Positions 8,926 through 61,820 of a stretch of DNA of 64,000 nt are shown here, piece by piece. Below the pieces are notes generated by a model. It saw only the letters and a list, made by a program, of their open reading frames with translations, did no database searches and had not been told where the DNA came from. The position numbers and the translations under genes are program-made. This stretch comes from Ulva prolifera (taxonomy: Eukaryota; Chlorophyta; Ulvophyceae; Ulvales; Ulvaceae). Every line of letters begins with the position of its first letter. Within the stretch, counting starts at the first letter, position 1. The DNA lies in the NCBI GenBank assembly GCA_023078555.1, contig CM041201.1, positions 8,563,172 through 8,627,171 on the forward strand, written 5' to 3'.

Positions 8926-11900
8926 ATGAGTGCGGAGGAAGGTGAAGTGTCCGATGGACAGGTCCATTCAGATGGAGGGCTGGTGCGCGCTCTCCGGGTC
9001 CCGTGACCGCGCCGCTGGTGATTGCCCAGACGCATATGTACATAAGTGTTTGTATCATCATATACTGCTGTGGATTGTCGTCTCCTGCCGCAGAATGCAT
9101 TGTGTGCTCCGACAATGCTCACAAAAACGAATTCGAACGGATGCGCTCACGCCTGCGTTGGCTTACAGGAGTCTGGCGAGGAGTCAGATCATGATAGCGC
9201 TCCGAATAGACGCAACCATCGTGGTTCACATGCTGGGCGAGGTGCGGACGAAGTGCGTTATCACCGGATGGACCGCATGGATGCTGGCCATGCGCGTTCC
9301 GACCGCTGGAGAAGAGGCTATGTGCGTGGAGGGGAGCCCCACAGAACTCACAATCGAAGCCATGAACGGTCCGATAGACCAGGCAGACATTTGAGCAAAA
9401 ACGTGTCGCCCGGGAAACCCCCTGTGCAGCATTCCCGTGATAGACCTGGTGATGTGAGAGATCGTGGGGGTGGTAGGGAACGAGCCGGCAGCCAGCACAG
9501 ACCATCAGGTCCTTCAAAATCTAAGGCAGCTATAAGGGATGGCTCGTCTTCGCTGGACGAGGCAGCTACCAAGCAGGCTGCTAGTTCGCCTCAGCCTGTC
9601 CACCATGCCGACCTCAGCACAATGCAGAAGCTCATCACCTTGGACACAGTTGGGGTTGCAGCGGCGAAACAGTGCGCCTCGGGAACATCATCTTGAGCTT
9701 ATGCATGCATCGTTGTTAAAATTGTGCTCTGAAATGCTTGAATTCAGCTCCACAATGACTGTTTTCAGATCCTTCACTTACACATGCGCTGTCCTCCGCA
9801 AAGGGCTTGCCATACAGCAGCAAGTGTGGAGCGCAGAGCGCGATCGAGGACAGGCAGCTGCGCTTTATCAAGACCCAGAGTGGGAGGGGATGCGCACACG
9901 TCTCCTCAGCGGTCTGAAGGCTGTTCATCTTGTCTGCACTGCGGGCGTTGTCAGCGACATCACATCTTTGAAGCTGGGGCTGAGCACACTCGAGGAAGCC
10001 AGAGAAGTGTCAGCAGTACGGCCCTTTCGACCATACCACACTGACCTTGCGCTTCCATGCAACGTCAGCGTGGCATACCTGCACAGCCGCAATGCCTTGA
10101 CACTGCGTGCAATGAGGCAATGATGAACAAATTGCGCAAGGAATCTGAAGCAGGCATTCATTCTCAGCCTGCTACACATGAGAGTGAATCTTCTCTCTGA
10201 GCTTCGGCATGCACTTCCCTGGCACCACGGCAAGTGCACTGCTGCACTGGGACCTCCTGTGGAAGTGAAGCGCTGTCATTCAGGCTCTCACGAACCTTCG
10301 CAAGCCCCAGCAGACGTCAGAGGTCGTGTCATGGTGCACAAGCCTGGCAAGCGCTCTCAGCATGAAGCAGAAGCCCCGCTCCCCTAGCCCCTCCGCCGCA
10401 GCATCCTCCCGGTCCACGACTCCCGCCAGCAGCCGATCTGCTTCACCCCGGTCGACTGCCGGCGCTGCGCAGCCAGACTTCGACGGTGCTGCCAATGGTA
10501 TGGTCAAGACCGGCAGTGGACAAGACACAGCCGCCCCTGGGGATGAGGACGCAGTGGCGGAGGGGGTGTCTCGCAAGCAGTCAGATGGCAGCAGGGAGGG
10601 CACAGGCACCAAAGTCTCCCTGGCCCAGTCGCAGGAGCCGGAAGCGCAGGCGTGTGGATTCAAGCCGCGCGTGATGTTCCGGCTGAATATTTCGGGCACT
10701 GGGGCGGCAGCAGGGAACGCAGCGTCTGAGCTCGTCTGCGACCGTGCGCCCAAAGCATCGCTGCCGGCTGCACAAAGTCCGGTGTCAGAGCCACGAGCAG
10801 ATGTGGGTGCGCCTGGTGAGCCAGCACCACAGCCTTCCCCCGAACCGTCAGCTGTTGAGCTGGCCGGAGCTCCCGTTGAGGGGGCCCAGGTGCCGGATGA
10901 GGATGCCAGTGGCGACATGCATCGGACCGACACTGTTGTAAGCAGGTCGCAGTCCCCTGCACCGCTCCCGCCAGAGCCGGCGGAAGAATCTCCAGCGGTA
11001 GCTGCATCGGCGGAGGCAAAATGCACTGCTTCTGCAGAGTGGCCGGCAGCGGCCGGGCCGTGGGCTCCTATAGCACTGCCAGTCACCCCAGAGGCACCCG
11101 TCGCAGACATCGGGGGTGCTGCTCATGTGGACACGGCCGTGCGTGTGGACGCTGTGGCACCCGCAAAGCCCGCGGCAGTCGCAGTAGCGCCGGCGGCCTC
11201 AGGCAGCGCGCCTGCTGCAGCATCGGGTCCACAGTCTGCGACAGCAGCGGCGCCAGCTCCGCCTGCGCGCAGTCGCAAATCGAGATGGGACATGCGTGCA
11301 GAGCCGCCACAGCTTGCAGAGCCATCCACGGCTGAGGCAGTGCCTGCTGCACAGCACAGCGAGTGGCCACGGGCCGTCGCACCGTCCACAGCAGCTGCAA
11401 TGGAAACTGGCCCTGCTACCAGCAGCGCCGCTGCAGCCCCTCCAGCAAGTGATGGCGGGCTGGAGCGTGAGTACATGAATGGCCGCCGCAGGGATCCTGA
11501 GCGGGATGTGCGAAGAGAGCGCGATGCCGAGCGTGCGCGAGACCGTGAGCGCGAGCCGTACAGAGACAGAGACCGGGAACGTGATAGAGACAGGTTGAGA
11601 GACCGCGATTGGGAACGGGAGAGAGGCCGGCAGCCGGTGGCAGACGCACCGCACCGGGGAGATAGCTATGGCGAACCAGACCGGAAGCGAGGCCGCTTCG
11701 ACCGCGATGGGCCGCGGCGGAATCGTGACAAGGTGCCCCACCTGGAAGAGGAGCGGCAGCGCGGCCGCAGCCCAGAACATGTGGCCGGGGGGGCAGATGG
11801 CAGGGGTGGCCATGGCCCAGGAGGCCTGGGCAGCTCTGCAGGGGAGAATAGTTCCGCGCATGCGGCCCCTGGCGGGCGGGGCAGCCTGTCTCCGTCAGTC

Positions 11901-14687
11901 GTGCGCACACCTGCTGCGTGTGCGCCGGTACGCACGAGCAAGCAGGTAGGTCTCATCATTGAGGAGGAGCCGGTGACACCGCCAAGCGCGGCTGGGCTGT
12001 TCACAGTGCCCGCCGCGCGGCCGGTGCTTGTGCGTGAGGAGAGCGTCACTCCTGTAGCCGCGAGCCTTCCTGCCGAGAGGCCTGCTGCACAGAGGGCTGA
12101 GTCTCCAGCCACACCTCCGCCCGACTCCCGTGTCAGCCCGGACATCAAGACGGAGATCAAGTCCGAGCCGCCGCAATTGTCTAATGGCGCCATGAAAGGT
12201 GTGACCACAGCGGAATTGAAGCGCAGCCCGGGCGGCAAACGAGACGCAGCCCTGGCAGAGCCACCAGAGCGGCCGCTGGGCAGCGCTGCGGCTCACGCTG
12301 CGCCTCCGCCTATAGCTGTGAAGCCACAAGATGCCCACACTCGATTCCTGCCGGAAGTGCATGGCTCCCCGGTCACACCACCCGAGGGCCTCCCCCCGGA
12401 GGCACAGGATGCGCGGCAGCCATTTGGGCCGCCCGCTCTCACTGAGCCCGCAGAGCCGCCCCCCGCCCCATCATCTGTGGCCCCACCTCCAGCGCCGCGG
12501 TCACCCCCAGGGTGCGCCGCGCAGCGGCCGCCTGCGGCTCCACCTCCCCCTGAACCTGCGCTGCGGCCAGCTCCACCGGCAGCGCCCCAGGCCCGGCCAC
12601 CCGACGGTGTGCCTCCGCAGCTGCTCAGGCCTGCGTCGACAGCTAAGACACTCAGAATCTAGTCGATGCCCTCGCCAGGTGTCGTACATGCACGTTCACC
12701 ATGGCGATGTTGAATGGTTCTGACATAATCCATGTTTGCAGGGTCCGGATCGGGCAGTGGGGGGGCCCCAGTTGCGCCTGTGGCCCCCACAGCATCCCAT
12801 TGGACACCACCATCCCCACACTACGCAGGTCCCAGCTCCCAGGCTCCGCCTCCGGCCGGGCCAGCACAGCAGATGATATCCGGCGGCAAGCTGCTGCTGC
12901 TGGTCCGGGTCGAGGGCACGCTGGTGGATGTTGCCAAGCCTGTGAGTGTTGACAAGTGGCCTGCAGAGCAGCGGCAGCAGCTGCAGCTGAGCGTGAAGAC
13001 CCAACACCCCAACGACACCAGCCTGCTGCAATTGCCGGGGTCGCTGCTGTGGGTCAAGCTCCGCCCAGGCATCCGGACGTGTCTGCGGCAACTTTCAGCC
13101 TGCTTCTCAATGCGCCTGGTGTGTCCCCTGGGTGCTCTGTGGGGTGTTGCGAACTACTCAGCTTTGGATATTCGTTCTACCTTGCATCTGTATGCACCTT
13201 TCCTGCACTGACTCCAACAAAACCTATATTCTGCAACTGCAGCAGTTACAGTTCGCTGCAACAGGGCTCGCAGCCATACGAGAAGGTGAGTGACGGATGT
13301 TGGTCAATCGCCTCCTTCCCGCCCACACCAAGATGATCAATACAGAACAGCTGCTCTTGAAGCCTTCATGGAGCCTTGGTGCCATGAGCGCTACAGTGCA
13401 GTTCACATCAGCATTGGTGTTCTGTCTGGCACTGTGTGGCAGCCCCGGGGCGCTCTGCCGTGGCGAAAGGTGCAATTGCGGGTTCTGTTTGCAGGTGAGT
13501 GACTTGAAGCCGGAGGTTTTGACACACATCCAGCACATGCTTGACCCTCGTGGCACTCTGTTTGAGGGCTCCGTCGTGGACAGCGGGTCAAAGGTGTCTG
13601 GCAGCAAGGGCAAACCGGTCCGGCACCTGGACCGCGAGCGGGGCGTGGCCGGGCTGCTGCCGCTCACACTTATCCTCGATGTCAAGCATCAGCAGTTCTG
13701 GCAGCCCTCAGACTCGCAGTATGTCCTTCACTGCGAGCGGTATTGCTACTTTCCACGTAGCTCAACGGTACGCATTCTCTTTTGCATGCATGAGTAAGGA
13801 ATGGTTGCCCCGTTGTCATGTACCAAGACACCAAGCCACTGACTCACACCCACTCCTCATTTCCCAGCCAGCATCTGCCACGGTGGTATGTTGTATGCAC
13901 TCTTGCATCGGACGCAGACTGCTGAAGCATCTGCTCCATCAGGCACATCCATGAAGTTTGATATCCACTTGGTCTCCTACAGACTCCGTCTCGTGCTTGA
14001 TTTCGAGCTCCGTGTGTGTATCGCGGTGAGACTGATGGCATGATGAGGATGGCATTTTGAATTGTTCCAGGATTGATAAAAAGCACAATATTGTAATGTA
14101 GGCCACAACAATGCCATGCCTTCTTGCGGCCGGCAGGGATGAGTCCGCCATAGGAGGCGTGTTTTCATGTGCGTGCAGCGCACTGCTACTGATTCACCGG
14201 CGCTGCCTCGAAACGCTCATGTCTCAGCCCTGCTCTGCTGCGGCCAGCAGTAATGGCGCATTCCTGGCTTGGGATGCAGCTTCAGTGATGAGGCGCGAGC
14301 GGTCCCGAGTGCTGCAAGGCTGCGTCGTGCAGCTGGCATCATGTGCTGCATCTCTGAGGGTAAGCTCCTGAGCTGCTCTGTTCATGGGTAGGGGACAAGA
14401 AAGCAGTGCATGCCCTCACTGGAGTGGATGGCATGCAGGAAAGGCAGATCGAGTACTTGCAAGAACTAGCACGGGACTTTGGAGCTCATTGGGGTGGGAA
14501 GGGTGCAATCAATGCTGCAAACAGCGATGATATCACCCATGTGATTGCTACTTCGCCTGATAGCCCAGAGGCTATCTGGGGGATACAAAACGGCCGTGCA
14601 GTGGTCAAGCCATCCTGGCTCCTATGCTGCTCATTGTCATGGAGACGGGAGGCCGAAATGTCTTTTGCTGTTACTGAATGGGAGTAG
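8926..14687 (+). CDS. CPL3-like FCP1/BRCT protein, catalytic aspartates missing
   Basis: Exons: 8926-8982, 9169-9671, 9769-10008, 10361-12606, 12742-13120, 13246-13285, 13495-13767, 14102-14359 and 14439-14687. They close in phase at 1414 residues. The join between exons 3 and 4 is the least certain. The N-terminus is acidic and Arg/Ser-rich. A helical block at the exon 2/3 junction (KQSFTYTCAVLRKGL) resembles the N-terminal block of plant CPL3. A long disordered Ala/Pro region with an RD/RE repeat follows (about 11500-11640). Next is an FCP1/CPD-type domain with LWVKLRPGIRTCL, LDPRGTLFEG and YVLHCERYCYFPRS. A C-terminal BRCT domain follows (ITHVIATSPDSPEAIWG, NGRAVVKPSWLLCC). CPL3 and CPL4 remove phosphates from the RNA polymerase II CTD using a DxDxT nucleophile motif. 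Here the aligned positions read RVEGT (Arg1071 and Glu1073, bases 12906-12914), and the distal DD reads DV. By family rules this is a pseudophosphatase. A TGTAA lies at 14817. Confidence 0.85.
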
Positions 14688-15065
14688 TCACTGAGCCGTT
14701 TGCTCACTCTATGCTGAGGTAGTAGGTCTGATTTTTCTCAATGTCCTCAAGATAATTAATTCATGAACTTTTGGACAGACGTGATTTCGGAAACATTTAC
14801 ATCATCTATTGGAACATGTAAGGGACGATACATAAAGGAAACTGTCTTGATGCCAGCTGATTTTGGCAATGTTGCATTTCTGCAATTCCATGACAGCACA
14901 ATTATCTGATGTACATTTGATCAGGCTGTGCATCCTTGCACAGTACCTGTGCCAGGGTCGCCATCATCACTAGATGCACTTGATGAAGATGGCCACAAGT
15001 TGGTCGATGCATCGATGGATTCATCATTCAACAAAGTCCTTCTCAATCGCTCCAGCCTTCGCCGC
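14688..15065. other. Gap between convergent genes
   Basis: 3' flanks of the CPL3-like (+) and disordered-protein (-) genes. TGTAA at 14817-14821 fits the poly(A) signal of the former. AT-richer than the coding sequence; no gene seen. Confidence 0.5.
14817..14821 (+). terminator. Candidate TGTAA poly(A) signal of the CPL3-like gene
   Basis: TGTAA 130 nt after the stop codon. TGTAA is the common green-algal polyadenylation signal. The assignment rests on position only. Confidence 0.4.
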
Positions 15066-18000
15066 CTACTGGTACTGCACACATGATCCTGTTTTGAGCA
15101 CGATAACGCTGTCCACAAACAGCAAGCACGCATGGGATTGGGACACGCACCCCCGGTCCATGACATCTGTAGGCTGGTTGCTGCTGTCATCAAGCGCACC
15201 AGCTGAGGATGCGCGCTGACTGACATCAGAAATGTAGCCAGAACAATCGGACGGCATGCCCATGTCCGGAATAGCTGCTATGACAGCCTCCATATCTGGC
15301 GGCCGCCATAACTTCCTTCGCAGTGACGCATACTGGTCTAGCGTGCCCTGCCCCACTGTCCCCTGCGGAACGGTCTCCTGCCGCGCAGTCGCCGTGCGGC
15401 CTGCACCATGGATGTACGCAGGCTGCAACAGCTCCCTGATCGCTGGTGACATCTCTGAAGGGCTGGCCCATGTCGTGTGCAAGCCCGTGGCTGATACCGG
15501 CTCCGCCCGAGGCGTCGTGGCCGCGGACACAGCCCCACTGTCTTCACCAGCCCCGCCGTGCGCATCGCCTGCATCTTTCCCTGCATTCTCCGTCGCCAAA
15601 CCAGCTATAGGACCCGATTCCACGGGCGGGACATCAGCGGCACCGCTCCCTTCCTCTGCAATCGGCACCGACTCCACACTGCAGGCAGCCTCAGAGGCGG
15701 GCTTGTCCACGTCCGCACACGCACCACCGTCCCTGTCGACCTCAGGTTCAGCATCGGCACCTGCGTCGTCATCAGAATCGGGTGCGGCGGCTTCACGGGA
15801 CACCGCGAGGGCGCGGGCGACCAGCTCTTCGCGCTGTGCCAGAACCTCCTGCAACGATAGGTAGGAGGCGGAGACCCGGGGCGTCTCGGGGGAGTCCGAG
15901 TTGCACCGGCGCAGCGGCGGTGCCAGTGCGGCAGCGCGGCGGCCCGTGATTTCAAAGTCCTCTGAGGAGCGGGCAGATGCGAGAGCGAGCCTCGTGTTGT
16001 GTCTCATCTCTGCACCGCATGACTCTACCGTGGCTGCAGTGTTGGGGCCTCCAGCACATCCGAGACCCACTCGCATCCCCAAACACCAGCAACAGGACCT
16101 GGACATCTTAATATACAACACAGCCAGACATTACTTGGGGGATACTTGCGATCCACCAGTACCTAAAAGACACTACCTGCAGGCTAGTGAGGGCGTGCTG
16201 CAGCTATATGTGCCGCTGCTGGTGTGCAGCCTCCAATGCAAGCATGCGGACGATGACTCTGTCGGAAACTGTGCATGCACACGGACGTGCTCAGTTCAGG
16301 CTGCGGTGTGAAGCGATGCAAGCAGGTTGTTGCATACCTTGATACTTTTCCCGGATCCGTTCTTCGAGGGAGACTGGCCGCCTCCAGGTTGGCATCGAGT
16401 CAGACAGCACAGGCATACAGCCTGAAGATGCCACTGTGCCATGAACTGTAGCCTCATGCATACCACCATAGGGGTACACTGCAGGCCCAGCCTGTGGAAA
16501 GGCAGCCGTTACCGGCACCCCAATAGCGATGCTCCCCAGAATTTCTTGCATGGGCAAATTTCCATGGGAATCATCTGGGGAAGCAGTCTCCGAAACTTTC
16601 TCTTCTGCCAACTGACCTACACAGCAGCTGCAGTTGTCTGCACAGCGTGGACATGTCCTTGCGGCATTCTCGCATTCGCAAGATCACTCACCTGACAGAT
16701 TTCGGTTGATACTGTCAGGGTCGCCATCATGTTCACCTGCTTCTTTTTCACTTACACTGTTTGCAGCTACAGCGTCAGCATCTGCGTCACCAGATTCACT
16801 CCCATGAGCCTGTTTGTCTCCAGCAGCTGGACCTTTGCCAGAGGACCCGCCATCGCCTGAAACTTCAGTGTTTGCCGCTTCACCCTCCGGCCCTTGTCCA
16901 GCACCCTCAGCAGCGTCCTCAGCATCACTGTGCTCTGATGCATGTGAACCACCGGAGCCCTCCGATCCTGCGCTCCCATCCTCAGCGCGGCTTGCAGTTG
17001 GGCTGACATGCCCGTCACCTCCTTCGCTCGAGTGACTGCCACTCTCCTGCCCCCCAGCTGCCAGTGCCTGCAGGCGAGCCTCTAGCGCCTCGTGCAGGAT
17101 GTCCACCGCGACGGAGTCGCGGAGGTCGGGCGCTGCCATTTTGATGTCACTCAACATCTCCCGCCCCGCTGCAGTCGCATCTGCAACAGCGCTTTCAGGC
17201 CCCTCGTCGTTGCCGGCAGCGCCACTTCCCCCCGGACCCGTCCTGTCCTCAGCGCCGCGACGTGACCAGGCGCGCCCATCTATATCGGCATGCTGTGTCT
17301 TGGGCGGCTCGAAAGCCGGGTGGTGTCCGTCCCGATGCTGCTCCGGGCTCGTGGCCATGCTGGAGGACGCGGCGGAGCCGCTCCGCAGCGCCCCGGCCTC
17401 GATTGCGCGCCGAACACCCGCAGCGCAGAGGTCCTGCATCATGCCGTGCATCGCGGGCGCGCCCATTGCAGCCGGCCGGCCCGGTCCAGCTGGGAACGGG
17501 AACTCTGTGCCGGGGACGCTGTGCCCACTGTGCAGCAGCTTCTCCAACGCCACAAACTCAGCCGCGCGAGAGTCCTCTGCGCCTTGGTGGCGCTCTGAGT
17601 CGTCCCGTGCCCCGTGTGGGATGATGGACGTGATTGCCGCGGCGGCGCCGGGGGGACGGTGCAGATCAACTATGGACAGGAACTCTTGGCGTGGCTCTGG
17701 TGGCCGAGGCGCCGCCCATGCCGCGGCCTCGACCATCGACCCGAACGGCTGCAGGGGGTCCAGCCCATGCTGCACTGCGCTGAGTGCTTGGGTGTGGGCA
17801 GGCATTCGTAAGCCTGCCCTAGCCTCTCTCTCTCTCCCAGTCTGTGGCGAGTCGCTGCGGTGCTGACGTTGAGCTGGCGCGCCTCCAGCATGCGGAGCGC
17901 TCTCCTGCGCCTGATCTGCCTCATCGCCTGCTGAAGCTGCAGCATGGTTGGTGCTATGAGGCAGCGCAGTGTCGGGGGCAGCAACTGGGGCAGCTGGTAC

Positions 18001-19647
18001 CGGCGCGGACAGTGCTGGAGGTGCATGCTGAGGTAGATGCTGCGGAGGAGACGTCGTGCCATGCCGGATCACCTCTGTCAGCCCCTGCAGCAGCGCCACC
18101 AAAGCCACATCTGTTGTGCTGGAGCCAGCTTGCGGTGGCGTCGCCCCGGCACGCAGCACGGCGCCAGGCTCTGCATGCTCCTGTCGGATCTGCCGCGGCG
18201 CATCGCCGGCCCAAGCCTGCCAATGAGACGAGTCCGCGCCTATGTTTGTAGCTGCCTCACCTTCAGGCGGGGGCCCCCGCATGTGGCTTGTTGCATGGAT
18301 CGGCCAGGAACCGCCGTCCAACATGCGATCCACATGGCCGGGAACATGTGGGCGCATATGGCTGTGTGCATGCACAGGCCCATCCCCCACATGCATGTTC
18401 GCAACCGCCGGCCAGCTCTGCTGTTGCCCACACACCTCAGCTGTGCCGGGGGCAGCCTCCCCAGGGCATGTGTCATGGTGCCCACTCGCCTGCGGTGGGG
18501 ACCGCCCAGACTGGCCATACCCTGGGGCCAAAGATCCAGACTTACTGACGCCAGAAGCTCGTGGCCGAGCTGAACCCTCTTCAGCGGTAGGCACTCCTGA
18601 CACACGCCGGCCGAATGCGACGTCCGCTGGCCGCCCGCGCCGCCGCTCAACGGCGCGGTCGAATGCAGCCTGCGCACGGGCCGACATGGCCGCCGCGCGA
18701 ATGTTGCTGCCATCTCTCAGCGGCGGCCGCTGCGCTGGCATGGCCTTCTGTGCTCGCGCCCCGGCAGACCTCGATCGCTTCCGCGCCGGCGGCGCCCTTG
18801 CATCCTCTTCCCCAGCCCGGCCCGCCCGCGCCGCAGGACGGAGCGGTGGTTGCTCCAGCCCCGCCTCTTCCCCTGCCTCGTCCTGCGCCACCGCCCAGGC
18901 CCCCCCAGACCGCCGCGCACTCGCAGCCTGCCGCGCAGACAGCCGTTGCAGCGCCTTCGCCGCGGATAGCGCCCCAGACTTTGCACCTGCAGCGCGGCCG
19001 CTGGAGGACAGCGCCGCCGCGCCGCCTTCGCTCACGTCGTGCTGGATCTGCGCAGCCCGCAGCGTGACCTCATATGCACACGCCGCCGCAAACACTGACA
19101 GATCCTCCATCGCCTCCACGCTGTGCCAGCTTGGCAGGCCACCCGGAGGGGCCGGCGGCACCGCTGAGTCCGCCCCCCGCTTAAACGACTGCACTGCCGC
19201 CTGTGCCTCCGCGGCCAGTGCACGCGCCTTGCCCTTCGCCGCCGAGTAGTCCACCCCCGGCCCCATCGATGTCGCCAGGCGCTCTGCCGCCAGAGCCTCA
19301 TAGTCCGGCTGCGGTGGCTCCAAAGCCGTCTGCGTTTTTATAGCGGCCTCAGGAAGCAGGGCAGCGCGAGCCGCATCCACCATGGCCTGGAGGGAGGGGT
19401 GCAAAGGGGGCTCTACAGGGCGACCCAGAGGCGAGGGCGGCGAGGCGGCTACAGATTCCGGCTGCTCAGGAGGTGAGGCACCGCGTGAGGCGCTGCTACA
19501 CGGCGTCCCTGGGCGGGATGCAGCTGTCTCCGTGACTGTCGCCTTGTGCCGCGCCGGTGCCTGCTGACGTGGCACCCGCCTTTGAGCTGCCCGACCATTG
19601 TGAGCCATGGCCTTGGTAGCTGCACGCACAGGTACCGGCTGAACCAT
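15066..19647 (-). CDS. Large disordered protein, unidentified
   Basis: Three exons, 16692-19647, 16338-16616 and 15066-16009, with canonical boundaries (donors GTGAGT and GTATGC) and consistent phase, giving 1392 residues. Exon 1 alone is an uninterrupted ORF of nearly 1 kb of protein. Composition is rich in Ala, Gly, Ser, Pro, His and Glu, with no membrane segment. Possible ordered islands are a helix-prone N-terminal stretch around HPSLQAMVDAARAALLPEAA and ERLATSMGPGVDYSAAKGKA, a basic patch ARKRSRSAGARAQKAMP (nuclear-signal-like), exon 2's PTWRRPVSLEERIREKYQ and exon 3's YLSLQEVLAQREELVARAL (coiled-coil-like). An acidic Asp/Glu/Ser tail ends exon 1. No family was recognised. A regulatory or scaffolding role in the nucleus is only a guess from composition. 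It is convergent with the CPL3-like gene. Confidence 0.75.
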
Positions 19648-20314
19648 CCAGCCGTTATAGGCAAGTGGGAATGGCGGCCGGGCCAGTGCAGCAAGCAGTA
19701 TGCTGGCAATCAGACAAAGCTGTATAGAGCCTTGCCACTCTCAAACGTAGATGCACTTTATTGCAGGTGCAGGTATAGAAGTATGGTGGTACAGCGGTCA
19801 TCAGCAATTTTGAACATGGCCTTTTATGTGGCAGTGAACACGCAGCTTCGAGGGCATACAGCAATGTTCGTCTGAATCGGCACGCCAAGTCACCAGGAGG
19901 ACGTGTGGTGCGCACCCCCAGCAGCTGACTGGCCTGCTGCTGTCGCCCTGGCTGCTGCACGTGCTGCAGGCGGGCCAGGGCCATCTGATTTTGCGGTCGC
20001 TCGTAAGTGTTGGGCTGCGAGGGGGTGACGCAAATCTGGTGCCAGTAGCTTGGCTTCGCTGCCAGGAGCCAGGTTGGCTGCAGACATAGATGGTGGGCTC
20101 TCTACTCCTGCCTGAGACTGTGGCTGTGGCAGGCGCCGCAGAGACCGGCCCTGCAGGAGCAATAGTGCAGTGCCAGGTCGCTATCGCTTGATGTGCTGAC
20201 CAGCGTGACACCCACAAGCTGCAGTAGGCAGCTGCTGTGTACGCCACAGCACGCCCAGCAGGCCACATTCAAACAAAATTTTATGGCCAGCATCGGCTAT
20301 ATAGGGAATCAGGA
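19648..20314. other. Gap between two minus-strand genes
   Basis: 5' flank of the large disordered-protein gene and 3' flank of the next. Short open frames here show no protein-like signal, so no gene is called. An unseen extra 3' exon of the upstream gene cannot be excluded. Confidence 0.4.
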
Positions 20315-53500: not shown

Positions 53501-56500
53501 ATGTCGGGATCAGATGATGGTGATGAAGGAAGCCGGCAAGGAGTGCTGGGAGCTTTGAATAACACGGGCAAAAATTCAGGGCTGAAGCGGGGATTCCGCG
53601 GAATTAGCCAACGCCTGGCCATCAGCTGTGGGCACGCCTCCGCGTCCATCGCTGAATTGTCGGCGCGATGACATTTGATGCCGAAGCTATGAAAATTTCG
53701 TGTTCGATTGCAGGAGACTTGTGAACCGCACCAGCTATGCAATCGCGAGCACCGTCGGGCTGGTCATTTCTCCAATTGGCGGTGTCTGCGTGCTTGGAGC
53801 AGGGTCCGTCATAGCCGGCACCATCCTGGGAGCAAGGAAGTCTGCACAGATAATTGTCGTGTCTGCAGGGATAATTTCGACTATGCAGTTTCTGTATGGC
53901 TTTGTGTCCAGTCCTGCTAGGGAGCTTAGCGGCATTGAAGTTCTGGCTCAAATCTCTGGCGGAGACGACACGATGTGGTAGGACTTTGTACTTGACGCTC
54001 TATCATTTCCCTCGAGAATTTTGTCGACTTCGTGCATCTCTGCTGGTGACCTGGCTTTGTGCGACAGTGCATGGCTGCGTGTGTAAATGCATGCCATAGA
54101 GCCTGCATGCTCTTTGCAAATGGGCAGTCACCTGAGTCAGTACATACACCACCATTCCCATCTCATGGCGGCGCAGTGGACTGCTGAGAATTGGTCACAC
54201 AAGCCTGGTGTGCCTGCGACTGAGTCTGTCACACTGAGACTGGGATCGTTACGCAGGAAGGCTGGAAAGAAGCTGATGAAAACGTTTGACAAGTGCGGCC
54301 CCCATGCACACATGCCCATCGCCGTCTCGCGGGGCCTTGCCTCCCTAGCCTTCACTCCGCTGACTGAGCCAAGTTCTTTGCAAGCTGAGTGCGCAGTGTG
54401 ATCCAGAAAGCGTATGTGCCCCAGTGACTGTGCCACATGTTTCCAATGGTGGCTTCAGGGACCGTTCTTGTCGCAGACTTTTCTTCGTGACATAAGCAGT
54501 GATGCAGCATTCTGACCAATGCCGTACCTGTCATGTCCAATGTGCACTGCGATCGTGCTTGCGCTGCAAGTCAATGCGCTACTGTAGGAGCAGTGTCCAC
54601 CTGCATGCCGCGTGACTTCAGCTACACTACGCAGGCTCCTGAAAGCCTTTCCCCAGCTCAACCGGTCCCGGATTGCTGCTCTCCGTGATGGCGCACCTGA
54701 CGAGCTGCTGCTCCGTGTCATGACATTGATCGGCAAGCACCAAAAGCAACACCAGCCAGAGGAGGCAAAAGGGGCGCGCAAGAACGCCTTTGACGGCACC
54801 TCTCCCAAAGACGAAGACGGGGGCAAGGACGACTCAGGGCCAGGGACAGCCGCCCGGGAAGAGGTGATCCAGGTGTGTGCTGATGCAATGAGAGTGCGAC
54901 TGCAGACCCCTCAGGCAGCATTCTCATGCCACGGTCCAACGGCAATGACTTCGCGCTCTGGTCTAGCGGGCCCGTCTGCGTTCTTCCTCAAGCCATTCTC
55001 TGCTAGCCGAAGATGAGTACAGTGCATCGTGGTCCCATCACACGACATGACCCCCCCCCCCCCCCCCTTCGCACTGCTTAGATTCATAGCAGGGCATCAT
55101 GTGGTGGCCCAGGTCTCACAGATCTTCATACGTTGTGAATCACAACCTGTAATTCCAATGACGAGGCTGCAAACTCACTCATCATCGTTGCAGGAGCTGC
55201 GGCACTGGATCCACTTTGCCGAGGCGGCGTACTACGACATGGACACAGAGGACAAGATCAGCGCCTGGCTTCGCGAGGAGAACTGCGAGCTGCTCTATGC
55301 GTCCAAGCAGAACGCGCCCAACGCGCCCGTCTACTTTGTGGCGGTGCACCATGACCGCAAGGAGCTGATCGTCTCTCTGCGGGGCACTGTGAGCGTGGAT
55401 GACGCCGTCACTGACATGATTGGTGCGGTCAGGGTACCTCCAAGCCCAGTGATCTGCACCCCACGCACTCGCATGCCGGTGCCAAATGGGGCTTGCCTTT
55501 GTGGCGAGAAGCTCTATCCTTTCCCTGTGAACGCCCCCAGGGCTACACTGGTGACTGCTGTGCTCTTTGCTCACATCACCGCAAAGGAGTGCTTGCACAC
55601 CTGCCGGGAGTTAGCACCCTGACTCACGCCGCATGAAGTTTCTGTCTGTAGACGACTGAATTCACGGCCCTCGCGCGGCCATGGTCAAACGCACGGACCA
55701 CGCATTGAACACAGGGTGAGTGTGAGGGATCCATCTGGGATGCGCCTTCGACAGCAATGCGCCCCACGAGCTGCGGCTAGCTGCTTTGTGGCCTGGCCCA
55801 CGCCAGCACCCTACAGGATGTATGGCAGCCCATTCCTCTTGCAGCCAACTGGCCATTTGCTCACCACCCACCATTCTGCACGCAACAATGCGGGTATCTG
55901 CATGAGCTGCACAAAACACTGCACTCTCTGTGTTCCACGCCGACCTGTGCTATGTGTGCTATGGTCATGCTGCGGCGTGCTGTGCAGTTACGCCTATGTG
56001 CTGGGGAGACGACGACGACCACCGCGTGCACAGCGGCATCGGCAAGAGCGCCGACACCGTGTACACACGCCTGAAGCACCTCGCGCCGGCGTTCGCGGGC
56101 AACGGCTACTCCATCGTGCTCATCGGCCACTCCCTTGGCGCCGGCGCCGCGGCACTGCTCGCGTGGAGGCTGCGCAAGCAAGACGGGATCGAGAACGTGC
56201 GCGCAATCGCATACGCGACGCCGCCTTGTGCTTCGCCGAGTCTCGCTGAGGAGTGCCGGGATTTTGTCGTGACGTGTGTGTTCCGGGATGACGCCGTGCC
56301 GCGCCTCGCACCCAAGGCGATTGTTTCGCTGGAGAAGCAACTGTTGGAGCTGGACTGGGACGAGATGAAGGAGCTTGCGGACGCCTGGGGGCCAGTTGGC
56401 AAGATCATATATGGGCGCGCGTCGGAGGCGGCGAAGAATAACAAAGAGAAGCTGGACGAGCTCGAGCAGAAGCACAAGGAGGACCCGCTTGGGCATAAGA

Positions 56501-56904
56501 GCAAAAACGAAGATGGGGACGATGGCGGCGATGGTGAAAATGGCAATGACAGTGGCGAGCAGAATGGGGATGAGGGCTCGGAGGGTGGAGGCAGCGTGAT
56601 GATGGACCCGACAGTGCCGGGGCAGATCGTGTTGCTTCATGCAGCGTCAGATGACGCAAAGAAGATGAAGGCTGCACAGGTGAGGTCCGGGGAGGGCGAA
56701 GGGGCGTCGGTGCCGGACGACCAGAGGGAGATGGAGTTTGAGGCTGTGGAGATCGGGGCGCAGGAGGCGTGCCTGTGCGCGTTCCGGCTGGCCCAGCAGG
56801 CGGTGAATGACCATCTGCTGGATCAGTACCGCATGGGCCTGCAGATGCGGCCGCGCATTCCGGGGGGTGCCGAGGACGACCCGGCTCATGCGCGGCTTGA
56901 GTGA
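53501..56904 (+). CDS. DAG-lipase-like class 3 lipase, copy A
   Basis: Exons: 53501-53658, 53714-53977, 54257-54292, 54635-54872, 55194-55422 and 55988-56904, giving 613 residues in phase. The N-terminus is acidic (MSGSDDGDEGSRQG). Exon 2 encodes a hydrophobic membrane hairpin (SYAIASTVGLVISPIGGVCV ... IIVVSAGIISTMQFLYGFVS). The lipase domain begins ELRHWIHFAEAAYYDMDTED, then VYFVAVHHDRKELIVSLRGT, HSGIGKSADTVYTRLKHLAP, GYSIVLIGHSLGAGAAALLA (nucleophile Ser357), FVVTCVFRDDAVPRLAPKAI (Asp409/410) and DHLLDQYRMGLQM (candidate His). This order matches sn-1-specific diacylglycerol lipases and related class 3 lipases, which act on membrane DAG. An acidic insert (about 56460-56600) lies between the Asp and His regions. 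The nearest paralogue is immediately downstream. Intron 4 holds a C17 run. Confidence 0.85.
55051..55067. repeat. Homopolymer (C)17 in intron 4 of DAG-lipase-like copy A
   Basis: A sense-strand C-run in intron 54873-55193. Copy B has only a short C-rich stretch (around 59743-59757) at the matching place. Confidence 0.9.
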
Positions 56905-60800: not shown

Positions 60801-61820
60801 CCACAGCACGCGCCCAAATGCCCCCCTGTTCCAACCAGCCGTCAGCCAGCAGCAGCGGCCTGCCTGTGCGACCAGCATGCATGATGCATGATTCCTCCAG
60901 TCATGCTACGGTGTGTAGTCACGCCGATTTGCTGGGGAGACGAGGACCACAGCGTGCACAGCGGCATCGGCAAGAGCGCTGACACCGTGTACACACGCCT
61001 GAAGCACCTCGCACCGGCGTTCGCGGGCAACGGCTACTCCATTAAGCTCATCGGCCACTCCCTCGGCGCCGGCGTCGCGGCACTGCTCGCGTGGCGGCTG
61101 CGCGAGCAAGACGGAATCGAGGATGTCCACGCAGTTGCGTACGCAACGCCGCCATGTGCTTCGCCATGCATTGCGGAGGAGTGCCGACGGTACGTCGTGA
61201 CGTGTGTGTTCCGTGATGACGTAGTGCCGCGGCTGGCGCCCAAGGCAATTGTTTCGCTGGAGAAGCAACTGTTGGAGCTGGACTGGGACGAGATGAAGCA
61301 GTGCGCTGAGAGGTGGGGGCCGCTCGGGGGGATCATTCTCGGCCGCGCGAAGGATGCGGCGGAGACGAACAAAGAGGAGCTGGATCTGCTTGAGCAGCAG
61401 CACCGGGAGGACCCGCTTGGGCATGGGACAATTCGGGATGGTGGAGACGGTGGCGGGGGGAACATCGGGGGGGAAGAGGGTGGGGATGAGGCCTCGGACG
61501 AGGGGAGAGGCGTGTTGATGGATCCAACCGTGCCGGGACAGATCATATTTTTGCATGCCAGGTCGGCCGAGGCAAAGCGGATGAGGGCTGCAGGGGTGAG
61601 GTCTGAGGAGGGTGAGAGCGCTTCCGTGCCGGACGATCAGAGGGAGATGGATTTTGAGGCTGTGGAGATCGGGGCGCAGGAGGCGTGCCTGTGCGCGTTC
61701 CGGCTGGCCAAGCAGACGGTTGATGACCATCTGCTGGATCAGTACCGGATGGGGCTGCAGATGCGGCCGCGCATTCCCGGGCGTGCTGAGGACGACCCGG
61801 CTCAGGCGCGGCTGGAGTGA
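57821..61820 (+). CDS. DAG-lipase-like class 3 lipase, copy B
   Basis: Exons matching copy A one for one: 57821-57980, 58035-58298, 58534-58569, 59303-59534, 59924-60152 and 60919-61820. Exons 2, 3 and 5 have identical lengths to copy A (264, 36 and 229 bp), and the last exon differs by 15 bp. Motifs are intact: membrane hairpin SYAIAYTVGLLISPIGGVCV, DTLW, LLRVMTLIGKHQKQ, VYFVAVHQDRKELIVSLRGT, GYSIKLIGHSLGAGVAALLA, VVTCVFRDDVVPRLAPK and DHLLDQYRMGLQM. The catalytic Ser, Asp and His are therefore present. Exon 1 does not join exon 2 in frame with the visible donor (GTCACC) and acceptor: it ends one base short of copy A. Either another donor, another first exon or a real defect applies. Introns 3 and 5 are much longer than in copy A or differ fully in sequence. 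Confidence 0.78.

Follow-up and report, generated by a model that had tools for sequence, protein, structure and literature searches.

A strongly diverged FCP1/CPL-family gene with replaced catalytic aspartates, probably encoding a pseudophosphatase, in Ulva prolifera

The window analysed here is a stretch of 64,000 nucleotides of the Ulva prolifera genome (C6:8563172-8627171), and the genome searched alongside it comprised 88.9 Mb in 44 contigs, among which a profile search detected 38 matches to the chlorophyll a/b-binding family. On the forward strand of the window, an FCP1-like gene was modelled as five exons between positions 10362 and 14687, forming a single open frame of 1116 amino acids with GT/AG sites throughout and matching phases across all joins. 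Since the exon sites were picked by the analyst among several candidates for open frames and matched phases, this agreement of phase and frame is partly built in. Exon A (10362-12606, donor ACG/GTGTGC) contributes 748 codons of a long, low-complexity N-terminal region with no Pfam match at E 0.01, and begins at the first ATG downstream of an in-frame stop at 10266. Exon B (12742-13118), whose translation carries KLLLLVRVEGTLVD and LWVKLRPGIRTCL, holds the motif I site and the KLRPG block of the FCP1 homology domain; an exon of 12742-13120 had been proposed in an earlier reading of this DNA (the sequence-only reading) and is indeed present, but most likely ends at 13118, with the donor CTG/GTGTGT. 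Exon C (13495-13793) translates as PLTLILDVKHQQFW and covers the region of motifs II to IV, with the blocks LDPRGTLF, LILDVKHQQFW and ERYCYFPRS. Exon D (14179-14359) includes LLLIHRRC and, further on, VMRRERSRVLQGCVVQLASCAASLR, its final 20 codons forming the start of the BRCT match, and exon E (14439-14687) encodes the bulk of the BRCT domain and then a TAG stop. The 5' end of the model is uncertain, further exons upstream of exon A being possible. Just 5' of exon A, the forward strand has open frames (9046-10120) for which Pfam gave no match at E 0.01, the first being Arg-rich, and these could belong to this gene as additional 5' exons.

Elsewhere in the window, the reverse strand holds an open frame of 1018 residues (16687-19740) with no Pfam match at E 0.01. 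Two forward-strand open frames about 5 kb apart (55906-56901 and 60885-61817) share near-identical stretches, possibly as the result of a duplication, and the second of them was identified as a class 3 lipase (PF01764, E 1e-13).

The joined domain part of the FCP1-like protein (368 aa) matched the profile TIGR02250 (FCP1_euk) with E 5.7e-10 over 152 of its 156 positions (5-156), at a score of 39.6 bits that is far below the family cut-off of 135.25, a cut-off also missed by the intact paralogue described below (104.6 bits). Comparison with Pfam NIF, a check put forward in the sequence-only reading, gave 22.8 bits against a cut-off of 21.8 (residues 94-197, profile 24-124), a match that starts at profile position 24 and so leaves motif I outside it. 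Pfam BRCT scored 26.0 bits against a cut-off of 21.3 on residues 267-350 of 368, and because exon E starts at residue 287 this match spans the join of exons D and E. A search of the PDB down to E 1 retrieved four sequences; Fcp1 took the top three places (4xpz, 3ef0 and 3ef1, with E 0.031, 0.046 and 0.076, respectively) and a haemoglobin the fourth (E 0.77). By its predicted product the gene is thus a homologue of the FCP1/CPL family, beyond chance resemblance, and carries a BRCT domain as the sequence-only reading had held, the assignment ending at the level of FCP1/CPL (CPL3, CPL4 and FCP1 undivided) given a comparison set without plant or algal CPL sequences. A further match of the joined domain to Pfam MTHFR_C (E 0.0065, 16.3 bits against a cut-off of 27) was put down to chance. 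In the unspliced genome, TIGR02250 independently picked up 12885-13121 of the window (E 0.0056, profile positions 5-80), and NIF and BRCT searches made exon by exon did not detect the gene. No other copy or close paralogue of it was detected in the genome, the next-best matches having E 0.010 and 0.028. A collection of viral contigs gave 36 pattern matches to related loci, none of which was confirmed, and a TFIIF-alpha search of the genome, made with binding to RAP74/TFIIF in view, returned no match, as did all 14 controls, and so carries no information.

In HAD phosphatases the first aspartate of motif I is the nucleophile and the second the acid/base, while the aspartates of motif IV bind the metal. 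The DxDxT/V motif itself is described as the catalytic core (PMC2994645). In a three-way alignment of the window gene with the intact paralogue and the joined pieces of Fcp1 (PDB 3ef0), motif I, DLDHT in the paralogue and DLDQT in 3ef0, was replaced by RVEGT (12906-12920, forward strand; CGG GTC GAG GGC ACG), with D to R and D to E changes in an open frame. In motif IV, IDD became LDV, the second aspartate being replaced by valine (13678-13683, within LILDV at 13669-13683, also in an open frame); the aligner placed a gap beside this site and the pairing of Asp-Val with Asp-Asp was read by eye. The sequence-only reading had named exactly these two sites, and rightly, but left unmentioned an arginine (13621-13623) at the place of the motif III lysine, whose position we take from the Fcp1 literature, and SDL (13498-13506) opposite the TMG of Fcp1 in motif II, where the threonine is probably replaced by serine, an alignment that depends on the join of exons B and C. 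KLRPG was kept, as were the threonine of motif I, the first aspartate of motif IV and the basic character of the motif III residue. Around the site the fold, which had been described as conserved, can still be recognised but has diverged strongly, identity being 72 of 297 aligned columns (24%) with the intact paralogue and 52 of 261 with the joined pieces of Fcp1. At no position does the nucleophile codon CGG share a base with either Asp codon, and the change is thus not one recent hit; the remaining Asp changes are each reachable by a single-base substitution.

Were the gene model wrong or the assembly in error, an intact motif could lie in another exon or the bases 12906-12914 could be incorrect. 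Some room for this is given by the uncertain 5' part and by a small candidate exon that was read by eye inside the intron between exons B and C (13243 or 13246 to 13285). Against it, D.D.[TV] occurs at just two places in the six frames of 9000-15500, at 10542, inside exon A and far from the domain, and at 12149, out of frame, neither with the surrounding motif, so that an alternative exon with an intact DxDxT was ruled out across this region. A frameshift at the motif I site was likewise ruled out, both other forward frames being nothing like DxDxT, and motifs I and IV are both changed though they lie in separate exons. As the direct join of exons B and C stays in frame and aligns ungapped to Fcp1 through the region, the small exon was set aside, while still counted as possible. 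We consider an artefact of model or assembly to be very unlikely.

Maintenance of the frame was examined with a coding test based on 33 reference segments (4949 codons), in which the leave-one-out range, with stops ignored, was 0.035-0.584 log-odds per codon. Values for exons A to E were -0.051, 0.071, 0.199, 0.036 and -0.002, respectively, placing exons A and E below all 33 reference segments and exon D at the bottom of the range. With stops ignored, the read frame ranked first of six in exons A, B, C and E and third of six in exon D, and once stops were counted it ranked first in all five. The long frame that the sequence-only reading regarded as maintained is therefore open, but three of its exons (A, D and E) score low as coding sequence. 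The joint chance of exons B to E being stop-free under base shuffling with composition kept was 3.7e-6, a value biased by the choice of open exons. Among core positions identical in the paralogue and Fcp1, the window gene keeps 13 of 37, or 15 of 45 with the insert included. A preferential loss of catalytic sites was consequently unsupported; with so few conserved core positions kept overall, general relaxation accounts for the catalytic losses equally well, and these may be part of a general drift of the sequence.

The low core conservation and the weak coding signal of three exons both speak for relaxed selection or an early pseudogene, that is, for a copy drifting once unneeded whose frame is open through short time or chance. 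Such a copy would nevertheless have had to reach 24% identity to its paralogue with a five-exon model that needs no stop or frameshift, against the small, if biased, stop-free chance given above, and with KLRPG, LDPRGTLF, ERYCYFP and a BRCT domain above its cut-off still present. We regard this explanation as rather unlikely, though it deserves to be kept in mind.

A second, intact gene of the FCP1/CPL family, of the sort that the sequence-only reading had suggested looking for, was found on another contig (C3:7951746 onward). This FCP1-like paralogue keeps DLDHT, FTMGN and IIDDT, has a BRCT domain, and scores 104.6 bits with TIGR02250 and E 2.6e-24 against Fcp1 of the PDB. It is the sole site in the genome that pairs one of the five TIGR02250 matches with one of the six BRCT matches listed. 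FCP1 domain and BRCT are thus found in both genes of the one genome, the C3 gene differing from the window gene in its intact catalytic motifs and in having no comparable Arg-rich N-terminus in the part read, which excludes its start and middle. Besides the window gene, six NIF loci (nine NIF matches) were found in the genome, the C3 paralogue among them, a count from which genes as diverged as the window gene may also be missing, given that the NIF and BRCT searches missed the window gene itself. Both motif I aspartates were kept in all six (DLDHT, DLDGT, DLDET, DLDGA, DVDDV and DIDYT); in three of them (C9:5034339, the C8 locus and C9:167929) motif I lies beyond the NIF match, in an adjoining open frame, and was read by eye. 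Five of the six retain the aspartate that comes first in motif IV, the exception being a gene on C1 with VSES. Matches resembling the heptads of the RNA polymerase II tail numbered six, at two candidate loci, with five at C6:8248884-8251230 and one on C2.

Three of these NIF loci have features of their own. On the reverse strand of C9 (5029500-5039499), a single protein seems to combine a RING finger with an SCP-type NIF phosphatase (C9:5034339-5034743, E 4.7e-35) and a further HAD domain, Put_Phosphatase (E 2.9e-9). This protein was itself joined by hand, and its N-terminal part, for which Pfam gave no match at E 0.01, resembles an SPX domain. A NIF member on C8 (5883891-5884520, reverse strand) has DLDGA instead of DxDx(T/V) in motif I, as read by eye in the adjoining open frame. 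The C1 member (5660375-5660818, reverse strand), presumably Tim50-like, has DVDDV in motif I and VSES where the motif IV aspartates are expected.

The N-terminal region encoded by exon A contains a stretch rich in Arg, Asp and Glu (11478-11639, forward strand; 22 R, 10 D and 8 E in 54 residues) and KSRWD (11277-11291, forward strand) within RSRKSRWDM, similar to the U2AF ligand motif of splicing factors. The consensus of UHM ligand motifs (ULM) consists of basic residues followed by RW[D/E] and is matched by RSRKSRWDM; the motif was noticed first and the test made afterwards. Of 20000 shuffled versions of exon A, 153 contained [KR].RW[DEN] and not one contained KSRWD. When the window and 75 loci were read in all six frames (711770 residues, counting overlaps), [KR].RW[DEN] occurred 16 times and KSRWD twice, both at one place shared by the window and an overlapping locus. 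A cyclic peptide with KSRWDE binds the UHM domain of SPF45 (PMC7648758). KSRWD as a putative UHM-binding motif is accordingly a post hoc lead only.

A pseudophosphatase, as an inactive homologue retained for binding, would combine a homologous domain whose catalytic residues are replaced with expression and purifying selection. The predicted protein has such a domain, and what bears on its maintenance is an open frame together with the weak coding signal of exons A, D and E. With both motif I aspartates and a metal ligand gone, the HAD reaction, from what is known of the family, should not run, and the protein should thus be without phosphatase activity, as far as HAD chemistry allows this to be predicted. 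It might conceivably still be catalytic, with another nucleophile or another reaction in a remodelled pocket, and the motif I threonine, the first motif IV aspartate and the basic motif III residue do remain; with the HAD nucleophile itself among the residues replaced, we give this very little credence. The explanation that we favour, with some confidence, is that of a single-copy, strongly diverged pseudophosphatase of the FCP1/CPL family that would serve as an adaptor without catalysis. A second FCP1-family gene would have been retained for binding instead of catalysis, and dephosphorylation would be left to the C3 paralogue. The architecture would place such an adaptor near RNA polymerase II, where partners might be held via the BRCT domain, the remodelled pocket or the N-terminal tail. 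With aspartates changed to arginine and valine, the metal site would be gone and the pocket would be more basic. Binding to the phosphorylated polymerase tail or to transcription partners is putative. One elaboration, which we hold to be improbable, is a dead bridge from the phosphorylated polymerase II tail to the early spliceosome, in which a metal-free basic pocket would be combined with a ULM-like tail for a U2AF-type UHM.

In FCP1 and its plant orthologues CPL3 and CPL4, the FCP1 homology domain precedes a BRCT domain (PMC8774115, PMC2994645), and FCP1 is described as dephosphorylating the RNA polymerase II tail and as essential in yeast (PMC2175518). The window gene has the same domain order as Fcp1/CTDP1 and CPL3/CPL4 but, unlike them, lacks both aspartates of motif I and one of motif IV, together with the motif III lysine and probably the motif II threonine. 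Tim50 is a component of mitochondrial import without a BRCT domain, from which the window gene differs in belonging to the FCP1/BRCT branch. Both have an FCP/SCP-related domain with an imperfect DxDx(T/V) motif, and fungal Tim50 is reported to have no phosphatase activity and a non-catalytic role in protein import (PMC8346121). Among catalytically dead proteins of this fold that have taken on a different function, fungal Tim50 is the nearest precedent. For a different phosphatase family, inactive members have been suggested as natural substrate traps or scaffolds (PMC2994645). No description of a pseudophosphatase of FCP1/BRCT type was found in the literature searched, which was available in part and had most subscription journals outside its scope, and none of FCP type in the accessible portion of an Entamoeba phosphatome (PMC3827238). 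The window gene is probably a pseudophosphatase of the FCP1/BRCT branch, unusual, yet of a kind that has precedent. If it is indeed an inactive relative within this branch, an FCP1 domain can persist for binding alone, and the protein would offer a natural dead version for probing the non-catalytic roles of FCP1 domains.
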